Assembly: GCA_016935665.1 (NCBI GenBank)
Contig: JAFGQN010000203.1
Coordinates: 113,237-161,489 of the forward strand
Reading direction: 5' to 3'
DNA: 48,253 nucleotides
DNA from: Deltaproteobacteria bacterium
Lineage (GTDB): Bacteria > Myxococcota_A > Polyangia > JAAYKL01
Shown here piece by piece: positions 39,207 to 47,141 of the stretch. The stretch's first letter is position 1. Each line of letters begins with the position of its first letter. The notes under the pieces were generated by a model that made no database searches, was not told the DNA's origin, and was given only the letters and a program-made list of their open reading frames with translations. A program made the translations under genes and the position numbers.

Positions 39207-39786
39207 TCCCCCTTTTTGTATGAGGCACTGAATGACAGAAGTCCTGCAAGCCTGAACAAACCTTCTGCACGTAGTCAGCGCACCCCGTCAAATTTTATTT
39301 AGATATAAAACTATTGGCTGGACAATACATCTAAATCGAAGTTTTTTTAGCGAAATGGGCATCCATGGCGAAAAGTATTTTTGAAAGGAAAACAATGATT
39401 CATTCTACTGGATATTCGAAACCCCGATAAAAGAACACTCAAAGACACAAAGGTGGCAATATAGATCTGTTTGAACACTGACCTATAGGCTCCCCGTCTT
39501 CACAGTCCGAGCCACCCCGAATTCCACGTCTTGCCGCCAATTGTTGCTCCCCATACACAGTCGGCTGGGACCAATTCCATGGTACTCCGTGTCCGGGTTT
39601 CCTCACCAGCTGCGAATCCGGATTTGTTTTGGAGTAGAATCTGCCGACGCCAACGAAACGCCCTGCCATATCCATCATTCAATCCCCAAATCCCTGAATT
39701 TTTGGCATTTTATTCGTGCGCAAAGATGGTATGCTCGGTATCGTCACAACAAATAAAGATATTGTTTGTCAGGAAATGGAGACACC
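39207..39786. other. Intergenic stretch, about 580 bp, no confident gene
   Basis: Short open frames on both strands between 39439 and 39760 (for example a minus-strand frame 39678-39439 reading GRFVGVGRFYSKTNPDS) lack ribosome sites and homologues I know. It might be a decayed gene. No hairpin terminator or RNA gene seen. Confidence 0.4.
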
Positions 39787-42027
39787 ATGAAAGCAATCCC
39801 ACGAGCTCTCGGGTTCATCTGCCTGTGTGTATTGATGGCCGGGGGATGTTCAAAATCACAAAAAAAAAGTAAGCCGGAAATCGACTCCGCCACGGGAAGC
39901 GGCCACAGCAGAAACGACACGGGGGATTCCGCGGATACAGACCACGCCATGGACACCGACAATATAACGGCTATCGACAGCGACAGCGCTTCAGACCATG
40001 ACGCGGACACGGAAACACAAAGCAGTTCCAAATGCGCCGCCGGGACATTTGACGATGACCGCAACGCCGACACGCCGTGCGTACCGTGGTCGGATTGTGT
40101 CCCTGGGCAATACGTGGTGCGGGTGGGCACCTCCCTGACCGATCGCACCTGCGGCCAATGCCAGCCCCCCGCCACAACAACCGACATCAACGCGCCTTGG
40201 TGCACCATATCCCCATTTAAAAAAGTGGCCACGGGATACGACCACGTGTGCGCCATCATGGGCAGTCCCGACGGAAAACAAACCCCAAACGACGGCATGA
40301 TTTTCTGCTGGGGCAACAACGAAGCCGGTCAGGCCGTCCCGCCCGCCGACATTCGGTTTGACGATGTGGTGGCCAGTTCAAGACACACGTGCGGCATCGT
40401 GAGTGCCAGTGACCTGAATGACGATTTGCAAAGCAATGCCCTGTGCTGGGGCAGCGATGAGTACGGCGAGTCTTCGCCGCCTGTGGGCGCTCGGTTTCGG
40501 AACCTTTACACGGGACTCCACATTACCTGCGGCATTGTGGATGGCGACGCATCCAGCGCGCCGGTTGACGATGGCGAGGTGCTCTGCTGGGGAATTGGCA
40601 GCAGCGACGTCTCGGTTCCGCCCGGAGATAGCAGGTTTACGGCCCTGGGCATTGGCGGGCATCAGACCTGCGGCATCGTGGACGGCGGCGATGACGATGG
40701 CAAAGTGATATGCAACGGCGACGCGGTCACCGGGCAAACCGCACTTTACGATGACGTGCAATTTGTACAACTCAGCGCAGGAGAATACCAGATCTGCGGC
40801 ATCACGGCAGGGGAAGATGACGCCGGTCATATGATCTGCTGGTGGAGCGACACCAATGGCCGCATCACCCCGCCGGGCGATGTTCGCTTCCGCCGGATTG
40901 CCGGTCGCGGGCACCAGATCTGTGGCATTGTGGATGGGGGCGATGACGACGGCAAAGTGATATGCATGGAAGGACCAATGTTTGGCGCACCTTTGCCGTC
41001 TCCTCCGGAAAACGTGCGATTTCATCAAATCGACGTGGGCATTCACACGGTTTGCGGCATCGTGGACGGCAGCGGCGCCGACCAGAGACTGGACGGAACA
41101 ATACTGTGCTGGGGCGCCAACCGAAACGGCGAAAACATTCTGCCGGACGCGCGGTTTCGTGGATTCACCGCCGGCAGCGAGCACGCCTGCGGCATCGTGG
41201 ATATGGGCGCCAATGACGGCGATTTGGTTTGCTTTGGCGCCAACACGTGGTCTGAGTGCATCCCCCCTACTGGCGTACGCTTCGGACAAATTGCGATTGG
41301 GCGAGATCACACCTGCGGGATTGTGGATGGCGGGGATAATGACGGCACTGCCATCTGCTGGGGCCATAACACCAGCAACCAGTGCGATTTACCGGCAGAT
41401 ATGCACTTTCGCCATATCACCGCCAGCGAGACCCACTCCTGTGGCCTTATCGATGGCGGCTCGGATGATGGCAAGGTCATCTGCAAGGGGGAGGATATTC
41501 GAACCGCACTGGATGCCCCCGCAGATGTGCGGTTTCAGCAAATCGCCGGCGGCCGGTTTCACACATGCGGCATCGTGGCAGCCGGAAACAGCGCCGGACA
41601 GGTGACCTGCTGGGGCGAAACGATATATGGGGAACGCATCCCCCCCGCTCCCGCCGATATTCAATTCAGCGCCATTACCGCAGGAAGCGATCATACCTGC
41701 GGCATCGTGAGCGGCGGCAGCAATAACGGCAAAGCCCAGTGCTGGGCCAATGAAATGGACAGCTCGCTCATTCCCCCCGACACCGTCCGATTCCGCCAGA
41801 TTTCCGCTGGCACCAGCCACATTTGCGGCATCACTTTCGACGACGCCGATACCGCGGCCGAAGGAACCGTCGTCTGCTGGGGCAGCGATGAATTTGGCGA
41901 ATCGACGCCGCCTGACATGCCGTTTATGGAGATAACCGCCGGCAACCACTACACCTGCGGCATCCGCGCCACCGACGGTCAGCAGATATGCTGGGGCGCC
42001 ATCGCCCGAAACCTGTGGAAAGAGTAA
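39787..42027 (+). CDS. RCC1-like repeat lipoprotein (14 repeats)
   Basis: 746 aa from ATG 39787 with GGAG 5 nt upstream. Signal ends in LMAGGC (Cys21). Residues 25-82 are a Ser/Asp/Thr-rich tether (about 10 Asp in 30 residues). A Cys-rich motif at 83-125 (CAAGTFDDDRNADTPCVPWSDC ... DRTCGQC) is of a type seen in deltaproteobacterial surface proteins. From about 145 to the end I count 14 repeats of 34-50 residues with pattern HTCGIVDGGDDDGKVICWG...PP..VRF, each normally with two Cys. They match RCC1/BLIP-II-type propeller blades; 14 equals two seven-bladed propellers. Asp-rich DGGDDDGK turns may bind Ca2+ (inferred). Likely outer-membrane surface protein. More GC-rich than its neighbours. Confidence 0.9.
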   Translation: MKAIPRALGFICLCVLMAGGCSKSQKKSKPEIDSATGSGHSRNDTGDSADTDHAMDTDNITAIDSDSASDHDADTETQSSSKCAAGTFDDDRNADTPCVPWSDCVPGQYVVRVGTSLTDRTCGQCQPPATTTDINAPWCTISPFKKVATGYDHVCAIMGSPDGKQTPNDGMIFCWGNNEAGQAVPPADIRFDDVVASSRHTCGIVSASDLNDDLQSNALCWGSDEYGESSPPVGARFRNLYTGLHITCGIVDGDASSAPVDDGEVLCWGIGSSDVSVPPGDSRFTALGIGGHQTCGIVDGGDDDGKVICNGDAVTGQTALYDDVQFVQLSAGEYQICGITAGEDDAGHMICWWSDTNGRITPPGDVRFRRIAGRGHQICGIVDGGDDDGKVICMEGPMFGAPLPSPPENVRFHQIDVGIHTVCGIVDGSGADQRLDGTILCWGANRNGENILPDARFRGFTAGSEHACGIVDMGANDGDLVCFGANTWSECIPPTGVRFGQIAIGRDHTCGIVDGGDNDGTAICWGHNTSNQCDLPADMHFRHITASETHSCGLIDGGSDDGKVICKGEDIRTALDAPADVRFQQIAGGRFHTCGIVAAGNSAGQVTCWGETIYGERIPPAPADIQFSAITAGSDHTCGIVSGGSNNGKAQCWANEMDSSLIPPDTVRFRQISAGTSHICGITFDDADTAAEGTVVCWGSDEFGESTPPDMPFMEITAGNHYTCGIRATDGQQICWGAIARNLWKE

Positions 42028-42456: not shown

Positions 42457-44520
42457 TTATCTCCTGCCGGGGTGTAATTCTATAAAATCCCATATCGGTA
42501 GATAGAACCCAAGGACCCCTCCAATATACCACTTCATATCTGCTGAATCGCCACTGTCGCTTCCACTTCCACCGAGATTTTCCCATCCTATGCCCCCCGT
42601 TATCCCCCAAATGACCATCAAGTCACTTTCCGGAAAAACATGGCTGAATCCAAGGGTTGCTGCTGGTTTAACAAAATCATAAGGGCTGGGGTCCAAACTT
42701 TCCTTACCGTCCTTTGGATTCATCATCAAGTATCCTCCCAAATCAAACGGCGTCAGCTCAAGATGAAGCCCAAAGCTGTTTTTAATATGTAAATCCGCGG
42801 ATAAACCAATAGTAAGGGAAAGTGGCTCCAACCAAAAATCTGTTCCACCGCCAAGTGATGAAAACATTGATGAGCCAACTGAAATAATAACCATATGCCC
42901 ATCATCCTGGCTATATCTCACGGACCGTTTCTTCTGATTGTTTATGACAGCCTTCAATAGAATCGCACTTTTCGAAGTATTTTTTGTTGCTGTTTCGTTG
43001 TCTGAAGTTGCCAGTACCACCAATGAGGCGAGGAGTTTTATTGCATTCTGCTGCCGAAGTATTTTCAACTTAATAGCTTCACCTGAATTTGCAGTATTCA
43101 TCTGTGCTTTGCCGAGATAGGAGGTAGAATATCGTTCCAAAGCATTTGATATATTGCCATTCAGAATATCTGTATATATTTCCTTGTTGATTGAGGGATC
43201 GCACGGCACGACTTCAGCATGTGTGCCTAGGCTTAAGGCATCCGCCAAAATGCTTTGGGGCGTATCCGTCGGTCCCGGAGAAAGTATTCGCAGCGCACTT
43301 TGAACGTCGCTAATTTCGCCAATGTGTTCTGTAATCGCGTTACCATCTAAACCCATATTGTCAGACTCTAAGAGAAATCTAATCCGCGAGACAGAGCACC
43401 CACCCGATAAGTGACATTCCTCGATTACTGCTTTTATACGTTTGCCAGTATCATCCTCAAGTTGATCTTTGCCATATGAAAGCAGTATTTCATATGCCCC
43501 GTCCATAACGTCGGTTAGCCTATTCTCATGCAATGCCAGTAGTGCCCTTCGTTCTGCGTCATTGCCGTCCGACAAATTAATAAGATCACTCACTATTGCG
43601 CGTTTTAGAATATCACTTTTTTCAAGCAGGACATCCAGAGGCATAAATTCCAGCAGTCTCGAAGTCTCATCAAAATGGATATTTTTCAGCTCGCGCTGAA
43701 GATATTTTCTCGCAATCCGCAAGGCCCTGGCGGATAGCTCTTCTTTTACTACTTCGGCAACAGCCTGAATAGCCTCCGTCCCCATCGAAGATGCCGCCAA
43801 AGAACGATGTCTATCTCCAAGTGTCGTAGTGGGCTTGCGTCTTGGCAAATCAGCAAGGCTAGTTGCTTCTTCTGTCTCTGTGTAGAACCTAATACACCCT
43901 TTTCCTTCTGATTCCTCCTTATCTTTTCCCTCTGATTTTTCCTTTGGATCTGTAGAACCGCTGTTCCTTGACGTGAAAAAAAGACTGCCATTACAATTTT
44001 TTATCAAGTTTGGACTACTGCTACTATATTTATCAAATTTCCAGGAATAGTCGACATCCGCATCTATTGCATGGCGCGCTGGTTCAGAATAACACCTGAC
44101 GTCATATTTCCCTCCAGGTAATGTAACATGACGAATCAACTGTTTCGGGAACAACGGGTCCCATTCCAATGTAACAGTTTCCAACGATAAACTGCTGATA
44201 TTTTCTGGAATGAAAGTGCAATATGTCCTGGTAGGCGGTGCCTCTAACAGATAAACGATAATTGTTTGCGCCTTGCACGTTTTTTGGACCATGTCATCAT
44301 TCTTGCAATTCCCAATATCCAATTGTTCCGATCTGTTTGTGCAATCGGTTGAGGAGCACTCTTCTCTCTGTGTTGATTCCCCGCTCGCTGAGGAATGGCT
44401 ATTTTTGTCATCAGCCCTTGCAATATTGCTCCCCCCAATAACAATGCTCCAAAAAAGAACGACACATAGATATGTATTTTGGCTAATATGCGGTGAAACG
44501 CCACATTTGTACGGTTTCAT
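42457..44520 (-). CDS. Large exported protein with barrel-like C-terminus, unknown family
   Basis: 687 aa from ATG 44520 (AAAGGTGG just upstream). Signal peptide cleaved near ARA|DD (36/37). N-terminal half has scattered Cys and a beta-rich region around 90-160 (IIVYLLEAPPTRTYCTF ... LPGGKYDVRCYS). A charged low-complexity linker lies about 195-215 (KEKSEGKDKEESEGKG). A long helical middle spans about 245-520. The last about 140 residues look like outer-membrane strands (PLSLTIGLSADLHI, FGLHLELTPFDLGGYL, LMVIWGITGGIGWENL, WYIGGVLGFYLPIW). The protein ends abruptly at IELHPGRR, without the terminal aromatic typical of barrels. The gene overlaps the upstream protease gene by 38 nt, implying joint expression. 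Confidence 0.7.
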   Translation of the reverse strand: MKPYKCGVSPHISQNTYLCVVLFWSIVIGGSNIARADDKNSHSSASGESTQREECSSTDCTNRSEQLDIGNCKNDDMVQKTCKAQTIIVYLLEAPPTRTYCTFIPENISSLSLETVTLEWDPLFPKQLIRHVTLPGGKYDVRCYSEPARHAIDADVDYSWKFDKYSSSSPNLIKNCNGSLFFTSRNSGSTDPKEKSEGKDKEESEGKGCIRFYTETEEATSLADLPRRKPTTTLGDRHRSLAASSMGTEAIQAVAEVVKEELSARALRIARKYLQRELKNIHFDETSRLLEFMPLDVLLEKSDILKRAIVSDLINLSDGNDAERRALLALHENRLTDVMDGAYEILLSYGKDQLEDDTGKRIKAVIEECHLSGGCSVSRIRFLLESDNMGLDGNAITEHIGEISDVQSALRILSPGPTDTPQSILADALSLGTHAEVVPCDPSINKEIYTDILNGNISNALERYSTSYLGKAQMNTANSGEAIKLKILRQQNAIKLLASLVVLATSDNETATKNTSKSAILLKAVINNQKKRSVRYSQDDGHMVIISVGSSMFSSLGGGTDFWLEPLSLTIGLSADLHIKNSFGLHLELTPFDLGGYLMMNPKDGKESLDPSPYDFVKPAATLGFSHVFPESDLMVIWGITGGIGWENLGGSGSDSGDSADMKWYIGGVLGFYLPIWDFIELHPGRR

Positions 44521-45997
44521 CTAACCACCTTTCAATTGCATCCACTCTTGTGTAGATGCCACCAGAGCCGCATGCTGCTCTGTTTGAGTTAACACCTCTG
44601 GACAAAATTCCGACCAGGCGCCAGCCGCACCAGTTTTTTTCTCCGACCAATTCATACAAAGGACCGCCACTGTCACCAAAACAGGTATCGCGACCAAGCG
44701 TGCCAGTAACAACCAGCTCAGTTTCGGGGATACATCCTGTTTCTTCCGCGCGTCCCCCATTACAACCCCAACCGGTAGCCGGATAGTCAATGAACTTTTT
44801 TGGGTATGGTCGGTGTCGCAGCTGTTTTTTTTGAAAATCCAGAGATGCAAATCTCAAGACAGACTGTACCTGTCCATGCATCTGCCGATGGCGCATTGAT
44901 ATCGGTGTTTCTTCTTGGGGACTGACTCTTAATATTGCCGCGTCTACTGGCGATTCTGCGCGTCTGTATTCCAGTACGGGAAACGCAACCTGTTCGGCGC
45001 CAACTTCGACAAGAACACGGCTGGATGGGAGGCAGTGGGCAGCCGTAAGAACTGCTTGCTCTGAAATCAGGACACCAGCGCATTTCCAGCCGTCCCTGTC
45101 ACCAACCAGAACACCCGATGGTTCAGCTGGCCGGCTTATCCCCACTTCCCAGTCTGGTTTTGCTACTTTGTCGACGAAGGACAGAAATTGCTTTTCAACC
45201 ATCGCAAGCTGTTCGGCAAAAACCGATGTGTCGGTTTCTGACAATGGGATATCATTTAGCTTTACTACGTCACATTTTCCTGATGCCCCCGTTTCAGAAC
45301 CTGACCTACATTCTTTTTCAATGAGCTCTGACATCTTTTCATGACTACAACCAAGCTCTGCCTTGAGCGGTGGCTGAAGCACGAAAAATAAGTTTACACC
45401 CTTTTCTCGTACGGCACTTATTGCTAGTTGGTTCTTGCGCTTTTCACAACTCATTGGTGTATTTTTGACACTGTGAATACCGTCAGTGATCAGAACAAAA
45501 ATATCCTGGTCCGCTTTTTCCAATTCGTCAGCGAGCGGTGTGAATTTGTTAGGTTCGCAGTTATCCTTTTCCAATTCCACAACGTCAGCCGAAAACACAT
45601 CAGGGTCTCCATTCCATGCATTCAGAAAATGAGCTCTGGCGCTTTTCAGCCATTTACGTCGACTGTCACATTTTTTTTTATTTATCCCTAGAAAACTGGT
45701 GGTCTGATCCAGTAGAAGGCGAACTCTAAATTTTTTTTTGTCAATAGGCGATACAGGAGGTGGTTTCCGGTAAGTCGGACATATAGAATTTACCGGACTG
45801 GAGTATTGTAATCGCAATGCTTCAGATAATGTCAACTCATGGAATCTTTGCCAGACAACATCAGACTGAGTCTGGTTGACGTCCGAAACAAATTCATGCT
45901 TATTTTTCTGAAGTGAATGTGGCCGATTTTGCTGAGCTACGTTTTCTGCACAACCACTAGACAAAAGCAAAAAAACCAATGAAGCATATCTGTTCAT
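44483..45997 (-). CDS. vWA-like domain fused to trypsin-family protease, lipoprotein
   Basis: 504 aa from ATG 45997 (GAGGGGG just upstream). Lipobox LLLSSGC gives Cys16. Residues about 88-275 resemble a von Willebrand A domain: LLLDQTTS (D97, a MIDAS-like DxTxS) and FVLITDGIHS with D172. From about 285 is an S1 protease: His321 in TAAHC, Asp352 in DAAILR, Ser443 in GDSGGP, and D437 six residues before the Ser, the trypsin determinant for Arg/Lys cleavage. No propeptide or activation site is evident at the domain junction (VGISRP). Predicted lipid-anchored in the periplasm or on the surface; the vWA part may bind a protein partner, possibly the barrel-ended protein encoded by the overlapping downstream gene. 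Confidence 0.88.
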   Translation of the reverse strand: MNRYASLVFLLLSSGCAENVAQQNRPHSLQKNKHEFVSDVNQTQSDVVWQRFHELTLSEALRLQYSSPVNSICPTYRKPPPVSPIDKKKFRVRLLLDQTTSFLGINKKKCDSRRKWLKSARAHFLNAWNGDPDVFSADVVELEKDNCEPNKFTPLADELEKADQDIFVLITDGIHSVKNTPMSCEKRKNQLAISAVREKGVNLFFVLQPPLKAELGCSHEKMSELIEKECRSGSETGASGKCDVVKLNDIPLSETDTSVFAEQLAMVEKQFLSFVDKVAKPDWEVGISRPAEPSGVLVGDRDGWKCAGVLISEQAVLTAAHCLPSSRVLVEVGAEQVAFPVLEYRRAESPVDAAILRVSPQEETPISMRHRQMHGQVQSVLRFASLDFQKKQLRHRPYPKKFIDYPATGWGCNGGRAEETGCIPETELVVTGTLGRDTCFGDSGGPLYELVGEKNWCGWRLVGILSRGVNSNRAACGSGGIYTRVDAIERWLDETVQMWRFTAY

Positions 45998-46033
45998 AAC
46001 CCCCTCAAATACGAACTGTACAACGGAAAGCAT

Positions 46034-46739: not shown

Positions 46740-47141
46740 TCACCCGTCTATGAGGCTCTTGCCGCGTTGTGCGTGTTTTCGCACGAGCCGCTTACGCGGT
46801 GGAGCTTTGAAAACCGCCTTTAATGCTTTTTGACCATGAACATGTTTATATCCGTATATTTTGCCGCCGCTTATCTGACAGTGTTTAGTCAGCATGGCGT
46901 ATGAATAAAAGTGATATTTATTGGGGAATCGATGAGGACTCACAACTATTGCCACTATCTGATTCGCTCGCACCGGACCAATTCCCGGGATACTGGTAAA
47001 CCGTTTTACGTCTTTGAACTTTTTCGCATTTTCCTCAAACCGTTCAATATATTTTTCCTTCTGATGCTCAAGAACATCCAGTTGCGCACGCAGATTCTGA
47101 GCAACAAACCGGGCATAATCTGTCTGCAATTTGGCAAGCAT
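46740..47141 (-). pseudogene. IS110/IS116/IS902-type transposase remnant (C-terminal part)
   Basis: 133 codons carrying the Transposase_20 domain: a helical region (AQNLRAQLDVLEHQKEKYIERFE), the helix-hairpin motif FTSIPGIGPVRANQIVA, and SYAMLTKHCQISGGKIYGYKHVHGQKALKAVFK. The N-terminal DEDD catalytic half is missing upstream, and after KAVFK the sequence becomes basic (APPRKRLVRKHAQRG) and stops early, suggesting a frameshift. Intact IS110 transposases are about 300-450 aa. Non-functional relic marking past insertion activity in this region. Confidence 0.8.

Follow-up and report, generated by a model that had tools for sequence, protein, structure and literature searches.

A protease gene paired with an exported helix-barrel protein in Myxococcota: a candidate proteolytic cassette of the cell envelope

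What is a lipid-anchored protease doing in a gene pair with a large exported protein that resembles nothing in the protein family databases? The question is raised by a stretch of 48,253 nucleotides (hereafter the window; positions 113,237 to 161,489 of contig JAFGQN010000203.1, forward strand) from the Deltaproteobacteria bacterium assembly GCA_016935665.1 (GTDB lineage Bacteria; Myxococcota_A; Polyangia; JAAYKL01). Two minus-strand open reading frames, verified here for position and strand, encode P0001 (44483-45997, 504 amino acids) and P0002 (42457-44520, 687 amino acids). Their 38-nt overlap (44483-44520, minus strand), which is 4 nt in several relatives, agrees, like the positions of the two genes, with an original prediction made from the letters alone. 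That prediction proposed a surface proteolytic complex in which a vWA-like domain of the first protein docks the protease on the second. As described below, the pairing holds up and extends well beyond what the first reading could show, and a specific cleavage hypothesis, in which P0001 would cut P0002 after a single linker arginine, replaces docking by the vWA-like domain.

Results

A protease gene adjoins the partner gene across two branches of an unnamed family

Used as a single query, P0002 retrieved nothing from 59 near relatives, from GTDB contigs (peptide patterns and close search) or from plasmids, and it has no match in Pfam, NCBIfam, PHROG or the PDB. In a class-wide search of 318 genomes its barrel matched five large open reading frames alignable along their length, and profiles built from those five placed the family in 20 of the 318 genomes, with further members elsewhere in the phylum. 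A DNA pattern for the C-terminal aromatic motif of the family (Y[VI]P[FL].D[FL]N) gave 12 stretches, of which three (L083, L091 and L093) were left out as chance hits or because the partner was cut off, and led to members in named records including Corallococcus llansteffanensis and Minicystis rosea. A family profile built without P0002 recovers it with E = 2.7e-37 over residues 26-679 (search space 100000). Across P0002 and 17 relatives there is no meaningful Pfam match and no gasdermin match. By these comparisons we assign P0002 to a divergent, unnamed bacterial protein family outside Pfam, whose members are 600-1000 amino acids long. Close to the source genome the family is absent from both other genomes of the genus and present in only one (G006) of twelve others of the taxonomic family, and is therefore patchily distributed; together with its presence in 20 of 318 genomes of the class, this agrees with the earlier suggestion of an accessory module. 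An exported-S1-type pair was also seen on contig JADLGX010000622.1, in a metagenome-assembled genome labelled Candidatus Eisenbacteria, so that either the family extends beyond Myxococcota or this genome was mislabelled or misbinned.

To identify neighbouring genes, the DNA flanking each member was run through a simple coding scorer and inspected visually, and the genes were then compared with profiles. An S1 protease gene lies immediately upstream on the same strand in 19 of the 22 full-length members of P0002's branch, the window included, often with a 4-nt overlap. In one further member, L075, the gene that directly follows the partner encodes a caspase (Peptidase_C14, 7e-10), which brings the branch to 20 of 22 with an adjoining protease gene; L067 and L072 have no protease neighbour. 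Two contig-end fragments outside the 22 (L127 and L137) likewise carry the protease. In the sister branch the upstream gene encodes a subtilase in L080, L128 and L129 (S8 matches of 6e-24 to 8e-21 or better), a C39-like peptidase in L131, and a Trypsin_2-type protease without a leader in ten loci (L132-L136, L198, L199, L201, L228 and L229). A further set of about 25 remote barrel proteins, found with a second barrel profile (A9), mostly lacks a protease neighbour (present in 5 of about 25). The protease link is a trait of two branches and not of every barrel relative.

Because S1, S8, C14 and C39-like proteases adjoin the same type of partner, the partner is the constant element and the protease the exchanged one. 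These comparisons indicate that the adjacency of P0001 and P0002 reflects a functional pair and not chance. The original prediction had proposed looking for the two homologues in other genomes, and would have fallen had they stood consistently apart; they lie side by side in almost all genomes that encode the partner.

P0001 belongs to a partner-specific subfamily of trypsin-type proteases

P0001 begins with MNRYASLVFLLLSSGC, a lipoprotein signal with the lipobox LLSSGC; an alternative start at 46033 would make the protein merely 12 residues longer. The S1 domain (residues 290-496; 44510..45130, minus strand) matches Pfam Trypsin at 7.3e-16, above the cut-off, and factor D is among its best PDB matches. 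The catalytic triad of H321 (45035-45037), D352 (44942-44944) and S443 (44669-44671), all on the minus strand, is accompanied by D437 (44687-44689, minus strand) at the position of chymotrypsin D189, and these four residues are unchanged across 14 relatives. Such an aspartate in a trypsin-type pocket directs cleavage after arginine or lysine. On its family match, triad and residue 189, P0001 classifies as an S1 trypsin-type peptidase with predicted activity after Arg or Lys. The lipid anchor, intact triad and specificity aspartate had all been recognized beforehand from the letters.

Scored with leave-one-out profiles, members of the P0001 S1 subfamily reach 158-261 bits (P0001 itself 192.8), compared with at most 142 for the non-member trypsins tested. 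Within the class of 318 genomes, a protease of this subfamily exceeds 290 bits in just seven, all with an adjoining partner gene, while the next best scores 151 bits; the profile that gives this separation includes those seven members, and the leave-one-out scores served as the check. The scores indicate a subfamily of S1 proteases that is specific to the partner.

A beta domain and a linker arginine of the partner track the exported protease type

P0002 starts with a signal-like segment, predicted to be a signal peptide. Its structural model, derived from a 10-row alignment, has a mean predicted local distance difference test score (pLDDT) of 56.8 and is for that reason only rough. The model divides the protein, on the minus strand throughout, into an N-terminal beta domain (about residues 60-215, modelled at 65-146 and further to about 215; 43876..44343) with conserved P95, R98, D121 and P122, a linker (residues 217-255) with pLDDT below 50, a helical middle that forms the conserved family core (about residues 240-537; 42910..43803), and a C-terminal beta barrel of 6-7 predicted strands (residues 541-680; 42481..42900). 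Within the linker lies the sequence RHRSLAASS, in which the codon of Arg239 (43804..43806) marks the proposed cleavage site of P0001. Weak structural matches of the barrel to Ail (Foldseek probability 0.91, E 0.038), the OmpA transmembrane domain (Z 6.1) and OmpW (Z 5.1) lead us to predict an outer-membrane-type barrel protein. The signal-like segment and the rough model agree with the earlier description of an exported protein with a long helical middle and a membrane-strand-like end. Structural matches of the helical domain to Cry domain I and alpha pore formers (Z about 5) were at noise level and were set aside.

The C-terminus of P0002 (window positions 42457-42480) reads WDF-IELHPGRR, in place of the D[FLM]N end of almost all relatives. 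Assembly of outer-membrane barrels depends on the last residues of the barrel, and P0002 may for this reason be altered at its C-terminal end.

Across the family, the architecture of the partner varies with the type of protease beside it. The beta domain is present in 12 of 12 partners of exported S1 proteases (leave-one-out E of 1e-8 to 1e-28), and the same profiles find it in none of seven partners of leaderless S1 proteases and none of three partners without an upstream protease. The linker arginine behaves in the same way: Arg239 of P0002, in the context RSLA, corresponds to an arginine that is kept without exception in the 12 partners of exported trypsin-type proteases, within the motif R-[SGA]-[LMF]-[DGA], and the motif is found in 0/7 partners of leaderless S1 enzymes. 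The Arg239 column ties for the highest conservation in the whole N-terminal half; the motif has a background frequency of 1.4% of windows, and no shuffle out of 20000 matched the observed conservation. L127, held out when the motif was defined, carries RSLD ahead of its helical core. The exported S1 proteases all have both the trypsin-pocket aspartate and export signals, and no export signal was seen in the leaderless S1, S8, C14 and C39-like proteases.

The vWA-like region is an optional part of the protease

Upstream of the protease domain, P0001 carries a vWA-like region (about residues 86-215; 45353..45742, minus strand) with residues resembling a metal-ion-dependent adhesion site (MIDAS) at D97, S101, T153 and D172 and the motifs DQTTS..TPLA..TDG, in which the middle position of DxSxS is S or T. 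The MIDAS positions are invariant in three vWA-S1 fusions, namely P0001, L123 and L125; the latter two come from genomes that do not belong to the window's class, and each is followed directly by a relative of P0002; all three have in common the S1 signature WGC-N/D...GC.P...DTC.GDSGG. A Pfam search of P0001 gave no vWA match, the best match of such a region being VWA_2 at E = 0.24 in L123, and the best PDB profile match was a weak one to a collagen VI vWA domain (E = 0.3). Since Pfam does not recognize the region and its AlphaFold confidence falls below 50 (pLDDT), the vWA assignment in P0001 stands at motif level only.

Most relatives that carry the P0001-type S1 signature and the same partner lack the vWA region, which therefore cannot be the general docking element and looks like a convergent add-on. 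In approximately unbiased (AU) tests, a single origin of the vWA fusion gave p values of 0.46 and 0.23. The beta domain of the partner is the better docking candidate, because it co-occurs with the exported protease type.

Genomic setting and further neighbours

P0001 and P0002 occur in one copy each in the source genome (8.16 Mb in 249 contigs), and a purine-rich, Shine-Dalgarno-like stretch, read from the DNA, precedes each of the two starts. The contig (161489 bases) stops at the right end of the window, so that only 2.2 kb of neighbourhood is visible past the pair on that side. Within it, just upstream of the pair, the IS110 relic noted earlier was recovered as a transposase remnant (46740-47141, minus strand; Transposase_20, 5e-10). 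On the other side, a lipoprotein gene convergent with the pair (39766-42027, plus strand) encodes RCC1 repeats (1.8e-22) and a TNFR-type Cys-rich stretch (6.5e-6, under the cut-off); its G+C content is 0.61, against about 0.45 in the P0001/P0002 pair.

Other loci of the family show additional genes. At L068 (1439-2446, plus strand), a leaderless-protease/barrel pair is preceded on the same strand by genes for an extracytoplasmic function (ECF) sigma factor, for a second protein that joins an N-terminal domain to a Trypsin_2 domain (4e-12) and for a 616-amino-acid protein; together these genes may form a larger operon of the conflict type. A small membrane protein with an IPTEV/IPTEI motif followed by several transmembrane stretches is encoded beside the barrel gene at L033 (6198-6800, minus strand) and L200 (2854-3279, plus strand), and might in certain branches be a third partner. 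Directly upstream of protease-less remote barrel proteins lies a DsbA/thioredoxin-like gene at L204 (5189-6109, minus strand), L209 (2879-3325, plus strand) and L224 (2739-3341, plus strand). Barrel-only versions of the partner, 187 amino acids long and without a signal peptide, occur next to a glyoxalase-like gene in three genomes that belong to a single genus (L076, 3201-3764; L077, 1039-1602; L079, 3222-3785; all minus strand).

Discussion

We propose that P0001 and P0002 make up an envelope cassette of two parts, with P0001 as the dedicated processing enzyme of P0002, which it would cut after Arg239; to this reading of the sequences we give about an even chance. P0002 would be exported and its C-terminal barrel inserted in the outer membrane; P0001, likewise exported and lipid-anchored, would reach the same membrane, as its sorting there is suggested by the lack of an aspartate at position +2 (the E. 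coli rule). The S1 domain would then cut P0002 in the flexible linker that joins its beta domain to its helical core. Cleavage would free the beta domain, which may serve as a cap or a docking module, and the helix-barrel part would in turn be switched on or reshaped, with a pore, an adhesin or signalling all possible as the output. The vWA-like region is most likely an optional add-on that provides a metal-dependent ligand or adhesion input controlling the protease. Where the protease has no leader, it could meet its partner before export or after cell damage, and the latter would suit a damage-triggered switch.

The weight of the Arg239 evidence lies, in our judgement, in the retention of this residue among partners only about 20% identical. 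Several observations count against the cleavage proposal. The arginine motif was first spotted by inspection and tested afterwards. In the partner tree the leaderless-protease cohort is one clade, so that the presence or absence of the beta domain and the arginine amounts to one deep contrast, a single change, and not to 19 independent ones. R532 and R535, ahead of the barrel, are invariant in all cohorts and may be rival sites or structural residues. Partners of leaderless proteases also carry signal peptides, so that enzyme and partner would there be kept in separate compartments, unless contact is made ahead of export or once the cell has lysed. Confidence is low, finally, for the models of P0002 and of the vWA-like region.

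An account that we hold to be unlikely stays closer to the original prediction: P0002 would be an outer-membrane anchor that need not itself be cut, its beta domain docking an exported protease that acts on outside proteins during feeding or predation, and the vWA-like region of the protease binding substrate or matrix. Export signals on both proteins, the lipid anchor of P0001, the OmpA/OmpW-like barrel and the occurrence of the beta domain exactly with exported S1 proteases would all be expected of such a surface complex. It leaves unexplained, however, why an arginine should be invariant in an otherwise unconserved linker, and why leaderless proteases, subtilases and a caspase should stand beside the same partner core. 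The invariant Arg239 and the exchange of one unrelated protease for another, often one without a leader, fit protease-substrate pairing better than a standing surface complex. Of the complex first envisaged, the true pairing of the genes thus survives, whereas the inconstant vWA region and the features just named shift the balance towards a protease and its substrate.

It is improbable, though compatible with obligate pairing to many unrelated proteases, that the partner, through its beta domain or as a whole, inhibits or shields the protease until a signal arrives. The arginine motif would then be a canonical inhibitory loop in the S1 pocket, and an arginine suited to a trypsin-type pocket would indeed suit a substrate-like inhibitor loop too. 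Yet the protease gene precedes the partner gene in most loci, an inhibitor needs neither a long helical domain nor a barrel, and the constant region of the family is the helix-barrel core and not the beta domain.

Tight linkage of an enzyme gene to one for a protein with a C-terminal barrel could also bring to mind two-partner or autotransporter systems, with P0002 moving the protease over the outer membrane, but we consider this very improbable. Type V translocators have 12 or 16 strands, and the barrel modelled here, albeit at low confidence, has about 6-8 and would not be wide enough for type V translocation as it is known; P0002 gave no Pfam match to a type V translocator, a POTRA domain or a passenger. 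P0001 is moreover a lipoprotein, and proteases without a leader would have no Sec route to a translocator in the outer membrane. That the proteases are merely frequent neighbours sharing no mechanism with the partner is hardly credible, for although myxobacteria encode many S1 proteases (a genome can have up to about 200 candidates) and the remote barrel relatives mostly do without one, immediate upstream placement on the same strand in 19 of 22 members, often with the short overlap, is far beyond chance even at 2.5% S1 genes per genome, and the protease subfamily is partner-specific.

The cleavage proposal has its closest parallel in bacterial gasdermin (bGSDM) loci, in which a protease of varying family (caspase-like and others) adjoins the gasdermin gene and direct cleavage of the partner has been shown (PMC9612521). 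Shared features are the protease gene next to a membrane-acting partner, an action that is inferred for P0002, and the variable protease family. In contrast to the short cytosolic gasdermin, P0002 is exported, is unrelated in sequence and fold, and has a helical middle and a C-terminal barrel in a family of much longer proteins; P0001 is also exported, cleavage is here proposed from sequence, and a pore is one of several possible outputs. P0002 as a gasdermin homologue was rejected, given the lack of any gasdermin match among the 18 members searched.

A second parallel is offered by the Hachiman, AVAST and Lamassu nuclease-protease pairs and the canu caspase-nuclease loci, in which a proenzyme is coupled to a dedicated trypsin-like or caspase protease whose type swaps along the substrate tree (PMC12799240). 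Here too the protease type changes while the partner persists. P0002, however, is an envelope protein, and the locus has no gene for a metallo-beta-lactamase (MBL)-fold nuclease, no nuclease match and no adjoining defence gene. A reading as a defence system was rejected, PADLOC giving weak generic matches only (S1 similarity to the LmuA and Avs1b models at E 1e-4 and 0.06, HORMA 0.028).

Complement factor B and C2 have the same vWA-S1 order in one exported chain, with MIDAS-like residues and S1 similarity. P0001 differs in being bacterial and lipid-anchored, in lacking complement control protein (CCP) modules and in a vWA assignment at motif level, and the resemblance is one of order only. The P0002 barrel is similar in size to OmpA, OmpW and Ail; unlike these, it is fused to a large helical domain and to a beta domain, and it has no sequence match to them. 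No paper on such a protease-partner pair was found in the open literature (subscription papers were not covered) and the defining partners of the gasdermin and nuclease systems are absent, in keeping with the initial view that the pairing has no name. We know of no protease-triggered switch of this kind on the outer membrane.

Extended to the whole family, the cleavage proposal would describe a phylum-wide class of Myxococcota envelope switches, in which an outer-membrane helix-barrel protein stays inactive until a dedicated protease cuts a fixed linker site and the protease module (S1, S8, caspase or C39-like, with or without vWA) is freely exchanged, a gasdermin-like logic on an unrelated protein. 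We put this wider idea forward tentatively, as possible with the balance tilted against it. The locus exposes a two-gene system, coherent and conserved, in a large, predator-rich phylum, built around a protein family outside Pfam. That four unrelated types of protease are found with a single kind of partner points strongly to a coupling of protease and substrate, as in the gasdermin and pro-nuclease systems, and the prediction of a cut after a single residue, Arg239, is directly testable. Beyond this locus, the pairing offers a route to the substrates of many orphan myxobacterial S1 proteases.

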